A stretch of 64,000 nucleotides of DNA, from positions 186,001 to 250,000 of the forward strand of contig NZ_JAJNKA010000005.1 in NCBI RefSeq assembly GCF_021533215.1, given 5' to 3'. Positions 2 through 49,208 of the stretch are shown one piece after another. The stretch comes from Portibacter lacus. Lineage in GTDB: Bacteria > Bacteroidota > Bacteroidia > Chitinophagales > Saprospiraceae. A program made the position numbers and the translations under genes. Position 1 is the first letter of the stretch, and each line of letters opens with the position of its first letter. Under the pieces are notes generated by a model. It was given only the letters and a program-made list of their open reading frames with translations. It ran no database searches and was not told the DNA's origin.

Positions 2-892
2 ATGATGGCTCTCGAACTCAAGCCTGGTGACGAAGTTATTGTACCTGCTTTTACATATGTTGCTACAGCAGAGGTTATTGCACTTTTAGGCCTAGTTCCC
101 ATTATGGTTGATGTTAACTTAGATGATTTCAACATCAAAATTGATGAAATTGAAGAAAAAATTACAAACAAAACCAAAGCAATTGTTCCTGTCCATCTTT
201 TCGGACAAAATGCTGATATGGAATCTATATTAAGATTAGCAGAAAAGCACAATCTTTACGTTATAGAAGATGCAGCACAATCCTTAGGTTCAACATACCA
301 AAACAAGAAATCTGGAACAATCGGTGACATAGGCTGTACTTCCTTTTTCCCAACAAAGAACCTAGGATGCATGGGCGATGGTGGCGCACTCTTTACCAAC
401 AATGATGATTTAGCTGCTAAAATTAGAATGATTGCCAGTCATGGTCAAATCAAAAAGTATCACCATTCTGTTATTGGTGTTAACTCAAGACTAGACGCCC
501 TTCAAGCAGCGATTCTTGATGTCAAACTAAAATATCTAGATGATTATGCTACTGCTCGAAGAACTGCAGCTGATCGATATGACCACTTAATTACAACATC
601 AGAAAACATTAAAACACCTAAAAGAAATAAAAATAGCGATCACGTATTTCACCAATATACTTTACAGAGTGATCAACGCGAAGCATATATTAAAAAATTG
701 AAGGAGAAAAATATACCTAACAATATTTACTACCCGATTCCTTTGTATAGACAAGAAGCTTTTAAAAGAGGAAACGAAGACCTTTATTTGCCAAATACAG
801 AGCAACTTTGCAAAACAGTTTTCTCGTTACCAATGCATACCGAATTAACTAACGATCAACAAGAATTTATAGTTAATCAACTTTTATCTTAA
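2..892 (+). CDS. DegT/DnrJ/EryC1/StrS aminotransferase, 5' end cut by the window (WbpE-like)
   Basis: PLP-dependent sugar aminotransferase that transfers an amino group to a nucleotide-linked keto sugar. The reading frame is open to the left edge. Only 296 residues are present against the usual 360-380, and the first visible residues align with the middle of the cofactor domain, so the true start lies outside the window. Visible marks are GDEVIVPAFTYVAT, the IEDAAQ cofactor-binding motif near residue 88, and the Schiff-base lysine in FPTKNLG near residue 119. A WbpD-like acetyltransferase (3772-4830) and a WbpB-like dehydrogenase (15792) nearby suggest a 3-amino-uronic acid route (WbpB-WbpE-WbpD). 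That specific substrate is inference; the family call is firm. Confidence 0.9.
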   Translation: MMALELKPGDEVIVPAFTYVATAEVIALLGLVPIMVDVNLDDFNIKIDEIEEKITNKTKAIVPVHLFGQNADMESILRLAEKHNLYVIEDAAQSLGSTYQNKKSGTIGDIGCTSFFPTKNLGCMGDGGALFTNNDDLAAKIRMIASHGQIKKYHHSVIGVNSRLDALQAAILDVKLKYLDDYATARRTAADRYDHLITTSENIKTPKRNKNSDHVFHQYTLQSDQREAYIKKLKEKNIPNNIYYPIPLYRQEAFKRGNEDLYLPNTEQLCKTVFSLPMHTELTNDQQEFIVNQLLS

Positions 893-2383: not shown

Positions 2384-3532
2384 TTGCGAAAATATACAGA
2401 TAAAGAAATTAGTCAGATTGCAAAGGAGATCCTTCTGAAAGGACCTATTGAGAAGTCATTGTATGTCTATGCTCGTGAAATATTGAAAATCAGACTAGAT
2501 CATATAAAGTCAATTTTTCCTTCTACAACGAATCATGCTGTTGCTATAAAAGCCAATTCTCATCCTGAAGTCTTAGGTGAAATCGTAAAGCAAGGTTGTG
2601 GTCTTGAAGCTGCTTCTTTTGAAGAAGTTTTATTAGCACATCATGCAGGTTGCCCTGCTGAAAAAATAGTTTTCGATTCTCCAGTGAAAACAGTGAATGA
2701 AATTAAGAATTGTACCGATAGATTTCCTGGAATGATCTTAAATGCAAATTGTTTTGCGGAACTAGAGAGGCTTAAGGAAGTAGATCAATTAAAAATTGGC
2801 ATACGAATCAATCCGCTAGTGGACATCGGTTCTCCTGGAATATTTAATGTTAGTGGTGTAAATTCTAAATTTGGAATTCCAGTTACAGATAGAGCGAAGA
2901 TTGTTGAATATGCTTTGAAGATGGAAAATGTTCGAGGACTACATATTCATGCGGGTTCAGAGATAGGAAGTCGAGAAAATCACCTTAAGGCCATTGGTCT
3001 AATTGTCAATGTAGCAGAAGAAATACGAAGCAAAGGAAAGAAACTTGACTTTATAGACATTGGCGGAGGAATACCACCGAGTGAAGAAAGCTTAGACGGT
3101 TTTTATACTGGTTTAATTCAAGAATGTCCTGAAATACAAGACTATCAAATCATTACAGAATACGGCCGTTTTGTTCAGTCTCATTGTGCATTTGTCTTGA
3201 GTAAAGTCGAATACATATTGGATCATTGTGAACCTAAAATTGCTCTAATCCATGTTGGTGCTGACTTGTTTCCACGGGAAATATATAGTTCATCGCCACC
3301 ACATCATGATTTTATAATACTTAACTCAGCAGGAAATCAGAAAAAGGGAATCAAAGAGCGTTACGACATCGGTGGACCCTTGTGTTTTTCAGGAGACTTC
3401 CTTACTAAAGGAACCGATTTGCCACATATAGAAGCAGGCGATTTTGTTTGTATTACAGATACTGGAGCGAATAGTTTAAGTATGTGGAGTAGACATTGTA
3501 GTAGGGAGGTGGTGGAGGTGAGGGTTTGTTGA
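2384..3532 (+). CDS. Fold-type III PLP decarboxylase (LysA / ornithine decarboxylase-like)
   Basis: Member of the alanine-racemase-fold decarboxylases that remove the alpha-carboxylate of lysine, ornithine, diaminopimelate or related amino acids. The N-terminal barrel carries the cofactor lysine in AVAIKANSH (about residue 56), a HIHAGSE motif, and the phosphate-binding loop DIGGGIPPSEES. The C-terminal beta domain ends with CITDTGANS. Length (382) is normal. The start is TTG; no ATG lies near. The last codons and stop run into a GTTGAT repeat array. Its partner is the fold-type I PLP enzyme upstream. It is unlikely to be the housekeeping lysA given its setting inside a glycan locus, but the substrate cannot be read from the sequence. 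Confidence 0.8.
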   Translation: MRKYTDKEISQIAKEILLKGPIEKSLYVYAREILKIRLDHIKSIFPSTTNHAVAIKANSHPEVLGEIVKQGCGLEAASFEEVLLAHHAGCPAEKIVFDSPVKTVNEIKNCTDRFPGMILNANCFAELERLKEVDQLKIGIRINPLVDIGSPGIFNVSGVNSKFGIPVTDRAKIVEYALKMENVRGLHIHAGSEIGSRENHLKAIGLIVNVAEEIRSKGKKLDFIDIGGGIPPSEESLDGFYTGLIQECPEIQDYQIITEYGRFVQSHCAFVLSKVEYILDHCEPKIALIHVGADLFPREIYSSSPPHHDFIILNSAGNQKKGIKERYDIGGPLCFSGDFLTKGTDLPHIEAGDFVCITDTGANSLSMWSRHCSREVVEVRVC

Positions 3533-3589
3533 TAAAATGAGGTTGATAGAGAGTTGATCGGGTTGATATAAATAGTTGATTGGGTTAAT
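3528..3589 (+). repeat. Degenerate GTTGAT phrase array (left side of four-helix-bundle element)
   Basis: Six copies of GTTGAT or GTTAAT spaced about 9-13 bases apart start at 3528, 3542, 3553, 3562, 3575 and 3584. The first overlaps the stop codon of the decarboxylase. Two more copies lie at 3745-3750 and 3754-3759, just before the four-helix-bundle frame opens. The related inverted phrase (TATAGGGTT on the other strand) appears at 4182-4227. Confidence 0.6.
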
Positions 3590-3631
3590 AAAGTAGGAGG
3601 TCACTTAAAATTACGAACCTCGATTTTCAGA

Positions 3632-3769
3632 ATGTCTAAAGAAGCTTGGGCTTTAGCCCGAGAAAAGTTGGAGTTTAGGAAAAAGGTTTATGGGAAACCA
3701 CTGATGGTCTCACTTCAAGCTGAGGCTATCAATGGGGTTTGCAGGTTAATTAGGTTGATAAATAATTAG
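3632..3769 (+). CDS. Small ORF, 45 residues, unknown function
   Basis: An ATG-started frame of 45 residues lies in the gap between the decarboxylase and the four-helix-bundle gene: it begins MSKEAWALAREKLEFRKK, is basic and helical in character, and ends INGVCRLIRLINN. Composition looks more protein-like than the repeat DNA on either side, but its last codons fall in GTTAAT/GTTGAT repeat units. It may be a small protein belonging to the repeat element, a gene remnant, or chance. No family is recognised. Confidence 0.25.
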   Translation: MSKEAWALAREKLEFRKKVYGKPLMVSLQAEAINGVCRLIRLINN

Positions 3770-3771
3770 AT

Positions 3772-4830
3772 ATCAAAAAGGAATATACTTTTTCATTTGA
3801 AAAATTAAAAGTATGGCAGGATGCAAGAGCATTTGTGTCATTAATCTACAATGTAACCAAAGCATTTCCACAAGAAGAAATTTATGAAATCACTGCACAA
3901 ATTCGTAGATCAGCAATTTCAGTAGCATCAAATATCGCTGAAGGTTCCTCCAGAATTAGTGTGAAAGAGCAAAAAAGGTACTACGAAATAGCTTTTAGCA
4001 ACGCAACGGAATGTCTCAATCAACTAATTATCTCTAATGATTTAGGCTACATAGAAAACCATGCTTTATTAACATTTAGAGAAAATATATCTAGAATAAC
4101 CTATAGTTTAAACAAACTCAAGTCATCACTTGATTCAAAACTAACCGTTTCAGAACCAAGCGAAGAATATAAACCAAAATCAACCTCCCTCAACCCTATA
4201 AACCCTATAAGCCCTATAAACCTAGCAAAAGAAAACCCGGAACTTATCCAGACCATTGGCTACACTTTCCACTACACAGCTTTAATCGACAACGATAGTG
4301 AAATTGGAGAGGGTACTAAAATCTGGCATTTCTCACATATTATGCCTCATTGTAAAATAGGAAAGAACTGTAACATCGGACAAAATGTAGTCGTTTCTCC
4401 AGAAGTCATTCTTGGAAATAATGTAAAAGTTCAGAATAACGTCTCTATATATACGGGTGTTACCTGCGATGATGATGTTTTCTTAGGGCCATCTTGTGTA
4501 TTCACAAATGTAGTTAATCCAAGAAGTGCAGTAAATCGACGAGGACAATATTCAAAGACACATGTTGGGCAAGGAGCAAGTATCGGGGCTAATGCAACCA
4601 TCGTCTGTGGTCATGATATTGGCAAGTTTGCCTTCATCGGTGCTGGGGCAGTAGTAACAAAGCATATTCCTGATTATGCATTAGCCGTCGGAAATCCAGC
4701 GAAACAAATGGGTTGGATGAGTGAATATGGTCATCGCTTAAAATTTGATGATAAAGGTGAAGCAACATGTATAAAGAGTGGAGATGCCTATATTTTAAAG
4801 GATAAAAACGTACATAAGGTAGGTGAATAA
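3772..4830 (+). CDS. Four-helix-bundle (23S rRNA IVS-type) domain fused to WbpD-like N-acetyltransferase
   Basis: Residues about 1-125 match the four-helix-bundle family found in 23S rRNA intervening sequences: FSFEKLKVWQ, then QIRRSAISVASNIAEGSSR. A linker of three-residue repeats (NPINPISPIN, encoded by a 9-base repeat at 4182-4227) leads into a left-handed beta-helix acetyltransferase beginning near GYTFHYTALIDND. Hexapeptide motifs follow (KIGKNCNIGQNVVVSP, GASIGANATIVCG), as in WbpD/WlbB, which N-acetylate a UDP-3-amino-uronic acid. The frame opens after a stop at 3763; the first standard start is GTG 3835, but the family N-terminus begins around ATC 3772, so the start is uncertain. The four-helix domain is normally a separate protein, which makes the fusion unusual. 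The last bases overlap the next gene. Confidence 0.8.
   Translation: MKKEYTFSFEKLKVWQDARAFVSLIYNVTKAFPQEEIYEITAQIRRSAISVASNIAEGSSRISVKEQKRYYEIAFSNATECLNQLIISNDLGYIENHALLTFRENISRITYSLNKLKSSLDSKLTVSEPSEEYKPKSTSLNPINPISPINLAKENPELIQTIGYTFHYTALIDNDSEIGEGTKIWHFSHIMPHCKIGKNCNIGQNVVVSPEVILGNNVKVQNNVSIYTGVTCDDDVFLGPSCVFTNVVNPRSAVNRRGQYSKTHVGQGASIGANATIVCGHDIGKFAFIGAGAVVTKHIPDYALAVGNPAKQMGWMSEYGHRLKFDDKGEATCIKSGDAYILKDKNVHKVGE
4182..4227 (+). repeat. AACCCTATA 9-base tandem repeat inside the coding sequence
   Basis: Units AACCCTATA at 4192-4200 and 4201-4209 and AGCCCTATA at 4210-4218 are flanked by degenerate copies (4182-4190, 4219-4227). Being a multiple of three, the repeat keeps frame and encodes the Asn-Pro-Ile linker between the four-helix bundle and the acetyltransferase. 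On the opposite strand it reads TATAGGGTT, related to the GGGTTGAT/GGGTTAAT units upstream of the same domain. Confidence 0.75.
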
Positions 4831-47624: not shown

Positions 47625-47643
47625 GACGTGGGTCGTGGATCGT

Positions 47644-47731
47644 GAGCTATGAGCTATGAGCTATGAGCTATGAGCTATGAGCTATGAGCTATGAGCTATG
47701 AGCTATGAGCTATGAGCTATGAGCTATGAGC
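47644..47731 (+). repeat. GAGCTAT heptamer tandem array, 12 perfect copies
   Basis: Twelve consecutive GAGCTAT units from 47644 to 47727, followed by GAGC. The perfect copies suggest recent slippage. The array ends 16 bases before the start codon of the four-helix-bundle gene. An inverted, degenerate version (GCTCAAA at 48124-48130 and 48145-48151) lies just after that gene. Units are seven bases without spacers, so this is not a CRISPR. Confidence 0.92.
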
Positions 47732-47747
47732 AAAAAATAAATATAAA

Positions 47748-48104
47748 ATGGGAAGAAGTTATAAAGATCTAATAGTTTGGCAAAAAGCACATATTTTTAC
47801 GCTAGAGATCTATAAAATTTCGAGTACTTTTCCAGATAATGAAAAATATGGGATAACCTCACAAGTAAGAAGAGCTGTAGTCTCTATAGAACTAAACATT
47901 GTAGAAGGAAAATCAAGAATGTCAGATAAAGAATTTAGACATTTCCTTCATATTTCGAGAGGTTCTAATCAAGAAGTCCATTGCATTTTAGAAATATGCA
48001 AAGACTTAAATTATATCACAAATGATAAATACGAAGTGCTTATTAAATTGTGCGATGAAATAAATAAAATGTTAAATGGTTTTATTAAAAAAATATCTCA
48101 ATAA
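47748..48104 (+). CDS. Four-helix-bundle protein (23S rRNA IVS-type), standalone copy
   Basis: A 118-residue protein of the family encoded in intervening sequences of 23S rRNA: YKDLIVWQKAHIFTLEIYK, QVRRAVVSIELNIVEGKSRM and a long amphipathic C-terminal helix. It shares the L-VWQ-A, FP-E-Y-IT-Q-RR, N-I-EG-SR and KE signature with the fused domain at 3772-4180. Members form pentameric bundles, and the diversity-generating-retroelement protein Avd has the same fold, but no reverse transcriptase is present. Its TAA is immediately followed by the manC ATG. Confidence 0.88.
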   Translation: MGRSYKDLIVWQKAHIFTLEIYKISSTFPDNEKYGITSQVRRAVVSIELNIVEGKSRMSDKEFRHFLHISRGSNQEVHCILEICKDLNYITNDKYEVLIKLCDEINKMLNGFIKKISQ

Positions 48105-49208
48105 ATGAATGTAAATGCTAACCGCTCAAAGCTAGCAGCTTCCAGCTCAAACTACATAGCCATCATGGCTGGTGGAATCGGTTCTCGTTTCTGGCCTTCT
48201 AGTACTGCAGACCATCCGAAGCAATTCCTGGATATTCTAGGAGTAGGTAAATCACTGATAAGATTAACATTTGAAAGGTGCTTACACTTGGTTCCTGTGG
48301 AAAACATTTTAATTGTAACCAATATTCGGTACAAACAATTAGTTCAAAATCACTTGCCCGAGCTTCCAGAAAGAAATATACTTTGTGAACCATCGATGAA
48401 TAATACTGCTCCGTGTGTGGCTTATACTGCTATGCATATCAAAGCACGTAACCCAGAAGCCGTCTTTGCGGTTCTCCCTTCAGATCATGTAATTTTAAAA
48501 GAGAAAGAGTATATAGATCGATTGTCTGAAGCATTTGACTTCGCTACGAATAATGAAGCTATTGTAACTTTAGGAATACAACCTACCCGTCCAGATACAG
48601 GATATGGCTATATAGAAACAGATAACAATGCTTCCCCTGATCAAGATGAATTAAAAGTAATCTCATTTAAGGAAAAACCTAATGTAGAAGTTGCTCAGCA
48701 ATACCTAGACGCTGGGAATTACTACTGGAATGCCGGAATGTTTGTCTGGAGTGTGAAAACGATCATCTCCGCTTATGAAAAATACGCTGGAGGAATATTG
48801 GAAACACTTTGTATTGATGATTCTAAATTTGGTACAGATGAAGAACAAGCTTACATTAACGAAGTCTATCCCAAAACGGAAAGCATTTCAGTAGATTATG
48901 CAATTTTGGAAAAGGCAGATAACACCTATACTTTGCCCGCTGATATAGGCTGGAGTGACTTAGGAACATGGAATAGTCTTTATTCATACTTAGAAAAAGA
49001 TCAAAACGAAAATATCGTTCAAGCGCATAAACATCATATTTCTGAAACTAAAAATACCTTGATACGTGCTCAAAATGAACGGACCATAGTCATAAAAGGC
49101 TTAGATAATTACATCGTTGTAGATGAGCCAGGAGCTTTGCTAATTTATCCTAAAGGTGACGAACAGGAAATTAAAGCGGTAGTGCAATCGCTTACAAAAC
49201 CTAATTAA
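48105..49208 (+). CDS. manC: Mannose-1-phosphate guanylyltransferase
   Basis: A 367-residue GDP-mannose pyrophosphorylase providing substrate for Gmd. Motifs YIAIMAGGIGSRFWPSS (nucleotide-binding loop), FAVLPSDHVI, YYWNAGMFVWS and GWSDLGTWNS. There is no PMI domain (short form). The first 14 residues (NVNANRSKLAASSS) are an extension encoded by the right-hand inverted repeat of the four-helix-bundle element; family members usually begin a few residues before the YIAIMAGG strand. The ATG directly follows the previous stop. Confidence 0.92.
   Translation: MNVNANRSKLAASSSNYIAIMAGGIGSRFWPSSTADHPKQFLDILGVGKSLIRLTFERCLHLVPVENILIVTNIRYKQLVQNHLPELPERNILCEPSMNNTAPCVAYTAMHIKARNPEAVFAVLPSDHVILKEKEYIDRLSEAFDFATNNEAIVTLGIQPTRPDTGYGYIETDNNASPDQDELKVISFKEKPNVEVAQQYLDAGNYYWNAGMFVWSVKTIISAYEKYAGGILETLCIDDSKFGTDEEQAYINEVYPKTESISVDYAILEKADNTYTLPADIGWSDLGTWNSLYSYLEKDQNENIVQAHKHHISETKNTLIRAQNERTIVIKGLDNYIVVDEPGALLIYPKGDEQEIKAVVQSLTKPN
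48124..48151 (-). repeat. Inverted, degenerate copy of the GAGC phrase inside the manC 5' end
   Basis: GCTCAAA at 48124-48130 and 48145-48151 flank AGCTAGCAGCTTCC-type sequence. On the minus strand they read TTTGAGC, one base from the TATGAGC frame of the upstream heptamer array. They encode part of the extra N-terminal residues of ManC. Confidence 0.55.

Follow-up and report, generated by a model that had tools for sequence, protein, structure and literature searches.

An S23 four-helix-bundle domain fused in frame to a WlbB-type acetyltransferase in Portibacter lacus, and its probable origin in a hairpin-armed element outside ribosomal RNA

How does a domain of the kind encoded in intervening sequences (IVS) of 23S ribosomal RNA (rRNA) come to form the N-terminal part of a sugar acetyltransferase? 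The question is raised by a 64,000-nt stretch of the Portibacter lacus genome (contig NZ_JAJNKA010000005.1, positions 186,001–250,000), referred to below as the window, whose coordinates are used throughout. A single open frame (3766-4830, + strand) spans both domains, as a first-pass annotation of this DNA had claimed. The first of them, the S23 or IVS-type four-helix bundle (3772..4155, +; hidden Markov model match 3799-4113, residues 10-114 of the chain), matches 23S_rRNA_IVP (PF05635, Pfam; E 1.4e-30, 106.1 bits against a cut-off of 33.8) and the four helix bundle protein TIGR02436 (NCBIfam; E 4.4e-28, 97.7 bits against a cut-off of 24), the curated cut-offs of both families being exceeded, and the sole solved relative found is 2gsc (XCC0516; E 1.9e-18). 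The second, also as first described, is a left-handed beta-helix N-acetyltransferase of the WlbB/WbpD type (4255..4830, +, start approximate), identified by profile (Hexapep of Pfam, downstream of the S23 domain, E 2.6e-21), by sequence and by structure matches, the best solved relative being 3mqg, WlbB of Bordetella petrii (E 1.1e-63).

The start of this chain had been placed at 3772. That codon is ATC, and the first ATG, GTG or TTG of the frame is the GTG at 3835, within the S23 domain; ATC 3772 as a start codon is possible but unproven, and the window S23 seems to have lost its own start. Since no ATG lies between the two domains of the window copy, the enzyme, too, has probably lost its start codon. 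In a structure model of the fusion, the four helices have a predicted local distance difference test score (pLDDT) of about 50, residues 123-154 form an unstructured linker (pLDDT <50), and the beta-helix domain is mostly above 90 with one dip to 60. The confidence for the S23 part is low because the other rows of the alignment are acetyltransferases, and as this part is poorly modelled, the Foldseek matches speak for the enzyme part only: WlbB ranked first (3mqh, TM score 0.91 by target length), so the closest solved relatives of the predicted left-handed beta-helix fold are again WlbB structures. The matches themselves give WlbB, WbpD being the name used in the first-pass annotation; acetyltransferases of the WlbB/WbpD type are trimers.

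The two domains are joined by a 9-nt tandem repeat that had been read as a linker of Asn-Pro-Ile units, and 3.4 copies of the unit AACCCTATA, translated as LNPINPISPINL, are indeed present at 4192-4222. The array (4190..4223, +) is nonetheless more than a linker, being also the right arm of an inverted pair. The left arm, composed of degenerate GGTTGAT-type repeats (3521..3597, +), was recovered by the repeat search as its inverted partner and begins within the final codons of the decarboxylase open reading frame (ORF; 2384-3532) that lies upstream. In a predicted RNA fold the two arms pair with each other (z -3.05 against 20 shuffles) and the S23 ORF forms the loop. The features of an IVS, namely terminal inverted repeats able to form a predicted stem and an S23 ORF inside the predicted loop, are thus present, the stem being modest in the window copy: the inverted complementarity of the arms has p=0.035 against dinucleotide shuffles, and with a cruder mononucleotide shuffle the window linker scored 19, the shuffle maximum being 22. 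The right arm, with its 9-nt period, contains no in-frame stop, so that S23 runs into the enzyme.

Is such a pair of arms a general property of S23 genes? A family and order sample of 113 hits yielded 96 distinct genes, 87 of them with enough flank; three of these were dropped for runs of N, which left 84 for comparison with dinucleotide shuffles. Inverted flanks at p<=0.005 were found around 45 of the 84 S23 genes and 6 of the 136 control ORFs, and at p<=0.05 around 65 and 12, respectively; scores above the 95th percentile of mismatched pairs were reached by 55/87 S23 genes and 5/136 controls. Predicted RNA folds agree, with a median of 54 arm-arm pairs (n=84) against 29 when the downstream flanks were swapped (n=252). 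Direct, non-inverted similarity of the flanks is likewise high for 25/87 S23 genes, which may be due to tandem S23 copies. The link between inverted arms and S23 across many genes of the family and order is strong.

S23 genes are also placed in a characteristic way. The junction census resolved 75 S23 genes (three were unresolved; neighbours are mechanically called ORFs), and 53 of these lie between co-directional neighbours, with S23 in the sense orientation in 46. Among the same-strand downstream neighbours, 48 of 54 were scanned (leaving out the genes after the fused L002, L089, and L039, as well as L037, L097, and L114), yielding 10 thiolases, 7 proteins with a GTP_EFTU domain, and 3 UDP-GlcNAc 2-epimerases. 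Two recurrent junctions were read in detail, at nine thiolase genes and seven cysN genes, the latter being the cysD-cysN junction. When own arms were compared with cross arms at the same junction, the own arm was the best partner in just 6/9 and 4/7. The cysD-cysN junction was examined at 28 loci, of which 23 could be measured and five could not: 15 have short gaps (16-124 nt), four contain S23, one contains a degraded S23 (tblastn E 6e-11), and the remaining three have long gaps without S23, one of them containing runs of N. G011 and G142, which belong to one genus, both have S23 at this junction, and their S23 domains are placed in separate parts of the S23 tree.

Two further cysD-cysN loci were inspected on their own account. 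In the genome G005 (L169) the long junction has repeat-like ends, with small ORFs resembling toxin-antitoxin genes in the place of S23 (by eye), which raises the question whether other cargo can lie between similar arms. At the same junction in G014 (L165), 585 nt long, there are repeated blocks of GTTTAGAGG-type and complementary units and no detected S23.

Different sites of one unit, and also empty sites, were observed on cyanobacterial plasmids. The S23 part of the window matched 21 plasmid records, 20 of them cyanobacterial. An inverted pair is readable at each of ten plasmid loci, and nine of the ten pairs exceed all 200 mononucleotide shuffles; two of the loci (L296 and L302) are 97% identical throughout and represent one site. 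At 8/10 loci both neighbours are co-directional with S23, and two S23 genes with inverted arms lie inside clusters of CRISPR (clustered regularly interspaced short palindromic repeats) genes, on plasmids of Picosynechococcus (L297) and Pseudanabaena (L301), the gene orders being cas10-S23-cmr3 and cas6-S23-cas4. A unit of ~416 nt, consisting of arm, S23, and arm and 78-82% identical between copies, occupies three sites with unrelated flanks on Trichormus, Aulosira, and Nostoc plasmids, and the similarity ends at the arms, short repeat matches aside; the right array contains the stop codon of S23 in the copies from Trichormus, Aulosira, and pNsp_a. In Nostoc sp. ATCC 53789, the plasmid pNsp_a carries an S23 element between the genes of a 146- and a 95-residue protein, where pNsp_c has 3 nt, and pNsp_c carries a different S23 element between the gene of the 95-residue protein and the next gene, where pNsp_a has 3 nt, so that each plasmid is the empty site of the other. 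The pNsp_a element has TTCTA at both ends; this single case is only a hint that the motif may be a target duplication. Carriage of S23 by viruses was considered and dropped, as the search for close relatives returned one from viral contigs.

These loci bear on the possibility that the arrays are ordinary intergenic short repeats without any special link to S23. Arrays of the unit TGAGCTA without S23 do occur elsewhere in the P. lacus genome, as this explanation would have it, and exclusivity of the arms to S23 was rejected on that ground. We nevertheless consider the explanation improbable: S23 genes are flanked by matched inverted pairs far more often than control ORFs are, the arms of nearly all plasmid loci surpass every shuffle, and what the plasmid sites have in common is the whole arm-S23-arm unit.

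The first-pass annotation knew of no other such fusion, and proposed a search for the same two-domain order. That order recurs in eight further genomes. With a model built from four fused chains, fusions were found in 9/398 genomes of the same family, the Saprospiraceae, from seven genera (G000, G018, G124, G125, G155, G156, G188, G226, and G272), at ~490-615 bits, the remaining genomes reaching at most 406 bits. None was found among the best matches listed for 390 genomes outside the family, and a class-level search of 395 genomes, five of them of the same family, gave a fusion among the listed matches for G000 only. The searched genomes are an even draw from larger groups, and since nearly all rows score no more than five candidates for each genome, a fusion outside the listed best matches would be missed. 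In a tenth genome (G086) S23 is joined to a different enzyme, a DegT/DnrJ/EryC1/StrS aminotransferase. A DegT aminotransferase gene also lies directly upstream of the fusion in G125, and another stands at the beginning of the window (2-889). Frames longer than 185 residues hold 12 of the 87 S23 genes with flanks, and in five of the 12 the frame continues into an enzyme downstream, the acetyltransferase in four cases and the aminotransferase in one.

The recurrence makes it highly implausible that two frames were joined by a sequencing or assembly error. The missing canonical start codon of the window copy would fit such an error, but the domain order is repeated in the eight other genomes, where seven open frames have no internal stop and the single stop of the eighth (G018) falls before a frame of 320 residues; the fusion as a sequencing artefact was accordingly dropped. 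A single origin of the fusion was rejected as well. Seven changes of the fused state are required by the acetyltransferase tree (59 loci), starred branches forcing at least four of them; the S23 tree (101 domains) requires five and forces only one. Because of these forced changes, the fusion is likely to have arisen several times, to judge from the trees, and within one part of the S23 family, since all ten fused S23 domains stand in one part of the S23 tree (32/101 rows) behind a weakly supported branch. The bootstrap of the acetyltransferase tree had not settled, gains and losses are not distinguishable on it, and its 59 loci are a biased sample, rich in fusions since these scored best.

We regard it as probable that the window contains an IVS-like, hairpin-armed mobile element located outside rRNA, and that the fusion arose by reading through its right arm. 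The S23 gene would be the core of a small mobile element built like the intervening sequences of 23S rRNA, in which an array of short repeats stands on either side of the S23 ORF, the two arrays being inverted relative to each other and the repeat unit varying among copies of the element. Such an element would insert at co-directional junctions, mostly in sense, so that in the polycistronic RNA the arms could fold into a stem, open to cleavage, with S23 in its loop. The right arm could supply the C-terminal end of S23 or the N-terminal end of the following protein, and an arm lacking a stop in the proper frame would let S23 be read into the next gene; in the window and the eight related genomes this readthrough would have produced the fusion to the WlbB/WbpD-type acetyltransferase. 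The window copy would have arrived as the cyanobacterial copies did. The fusion would be the most visible by-product of the element. Five of the nine fusions, including that of the window, have no ATG between S23 and the acetyltransferase, and in these genomes the enzyme is therefore probably made solely as a fusion. Of the two options first offered for the fusion, altered assembly of the enzyme or a by-product of insertion, insertion is the likely source, given the inverted arms, which suggest an inserted element; the two are not mutually exclusive.

Several observations weigh against this origin. The different and empty sites come from the cyanobacterial copies and not from the window copy, for which the arm evidence alone is modest and which has no canonical start codon. 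Nineteen of the 84 S23 genes have no inverted flanks even at p<=0.05; the 136 control ORFs are mechanical ORFs of at least 100 residues and are not matched for position at operon junctions; and at least 20 arm-arm pairs remain in 151/252 of the swapped RNA constructs, a generous control. Among the ten fused copies, four exceed all 200 mononucleotide shuffles, and one other had little upstream sequence. The S23-free TGAGCTA arrays of this genome lie mostly in one orientation, according to a rough pattern scan, so that the arms may be products of a more general process that creates arrays. In four of the nine fusions an ATG follows the S23 domain ahead of the enzyme (the interval was scanned for ATG only), so that a separately made enzyme is possible there. 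Finally, the S23 domain of G018 has decayed, with 10/22 conserved positions and a long branch, next to an intact enzyme.

Has the fused domain been kept? A set of 90 free S23 domains defines 22 conserved positions, of which the free domains themselves have a mean of 19.7 and a minimum of 7; the nine fused domains other than that of G018 retain 17-21. In the genus with three fused species, rough estimates (the synonymous divergence, dS, was not computable for several pairs) give a nonsynonymous divergence (dN) of 0.15-0.41 for the S23 part (dS 2.3, or above the computable range), dN 0.39-0.89 and dS 0.93-1.25 for the linker, and dN 0.07-0.17 for the enzyme part. The S23 part thus appears to be under purifying selection in this genus, which would indicate later maintenance, and the decay in G018, which speaks for a loss of constraint there, points the opposite way.

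The same observations divide two other explanations. One holds that the chain is a selected two-domain protein, in which S23 recruits or scaffolds sugar-nucleotide enzymes such as the aminotransferase and the acetyltransferase, with the repeats serving simply as a flexible linker. All five downstream enzymes among the 87 S23 genes belong to these two kinds, the fused domains are well conserved and, in one genus, apparently constrained, and they share one part of the S23 tree, weakly supported as it is. We find this explanation tenable but rather doubtful: the linkers are element arms in at least four of the ten cases, the G018 domain has decayed, and free S23 domains are conserved as well, so that conservation need not reflect work for the enzyme. 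The stoichiometries, moreover, would not match, a solved S23 relative being an assembly of five four-helix bundles by the title of its reference and the enzyme being a trimer. The other explanation is a neutral by-product, in which the enzyme lost its start to the insertion and was saved by readthrough, the S23 part playing no active role. The scatter of the fusions over so few genomes of the family, the decay in G018, and the fast-evolving linker are in keeping with it, and we judge it quite possible, if short of an even chance, because S23 has been kept in three species of one genus with dN far below dS. On the mobile-element origin, any benefit of the fused domain would be a later matter.

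A close known counterpart is the rRNA IVS of Coxiella, for which PMC4990558 describes an S23 ORF between complementary ends, 428 nt in length with a 28-bp stem, excision by RNase III in vitro, and a proposed mobile origin. The S23 ORF, the complementary ends, and the length (~416 nt for the unit on the Nostoc-type plasmids) are in common with this account, whereas the elements studied here lie at protein-coding junctions, have arms that are arrays of a variable short unit, and can fuse to neighbouring proteins; the window element is longer (~703 nt), and any cleavage of its predicted stem is putative. Location in 23S rRNA was dropped for the present copy, as no Rfam family was found at its gathering score anywhere in the window. 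Relative to PF05635/TIGR02436 proteins such as 2gsc (XCC0516), the domain is the same and the window S23 is fused at its C-terminal side to an enzyme; relative to the WlbB/WbpD N-acetyltransferases 3mqg and 3mqh, sequence and fold are the same, and an N-terminal S23 and a repeat linker are added.

Short intergenic direct repeats with the unit TAACTGA are described in PMC4679880 as heptamer arrays of Beggiatoaceae, Cyanobacteria, and Bacteroidetes; in a Beggiatoaceae genome many of them lie close upstream of start codons, and 169 sets are direct and one is inverted. Those arrays have a fixed unit and are almost all direct, whereas the arms of S23 are variable and inverted, and the words S23 and four helix are absent from the main text of that paper. 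A resemblance of PF05635 to Avd of diversity-generating retroelements is stated in PMC10053308, and the likeness to that system is at the level of this family. In Flavobacterium columnare, the genes of guanylate kinase and a nicotinate-nucleotide adenylyltransferase have a four helix bundle gene between them, according to the phage-element table of PMC5524665. Searches of open-licence PubMed Central papers yielded no report of S23-acetyltransferase fusions or of inverted-arm S23 elements outside rRNA.

Since the pattern recurs in other bacteria, S23 elements outside rRNA suggest a little-noticed mobile element. A wider proposition, on which we find the balance even, is that in Bacteroidota and Cyanobacteria the S23 genes form the cores of a single broad mobile class, an mRNA counterpart of the rRNA IVS: hairpin-armed elements that would enter operon junctions in sense, renew the sequences of their two arms in concert, leave the flanking proteins unharmed through RNA processing or readthrough, and sometimes be captured as N-terminal domains of enzymes, repeatedly in sugar-nucleotide biosynthesis. 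The origin of rRNA intervening sequences and the role of S23 proteins are an old open question, and copies outside rRNA, together with a strain in which two plasmids provide clean empty sites, offer a system for testing movement, RNA processing, and the role of S23. The repeated fusions, in turn, illustrate how a host enzyme can acquire an inserted element as one of its parts, the repeat-encoded linker remaining as a visible trace.

Around the window element, the decarboxylase ORF is the upstream flank and a glycosyltransferase-family ORF the downstream one. An isolated additional copy of the left-arm unit was found by the repeat search directly before S23 (3748..3767, +), and a mini-ORF of 45 codons lies between the left arm and S23 (3632..3769, +), its stop ending 2 nt short of the ATC at 3772. 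The idea that this mini-ORF is a conserved feature was dropped, since its protein was found in 1/40 genomes, its own.

The window contains a second element. Its left arm consists of 12.7 copies of TGAGCTA (47643..47731, +; repeat search, inverted-flank p=0.01) and is followed by a free-standing S23 gene (47748..48104, +), assigned by sequence and by the profile match G000:C39:233763-234080. The right arm (48105..48155, +; from the sequence) is read as the N-terminal extension (MNVNANRSKLAASSSN) of a mannose-1-phosphate guanylyltransferase, in which the matches to the enzyme family start at residue 14-20. Besides the fused copy there are four S23 genes in this genome, that of the second element among them: by eye, three of the four, one interrupted, have inverted arrays with units other than that of the fused copy, and the fourth, near a contig end, has at most a loose one-sided array. 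The TGAGCTA arrays without S23 are L275 (G000:C9:82220-82331), L274, L276, L277, and L278. One such array, of ~15 copies, stands directly after a gene resembling superoxide dismutase.
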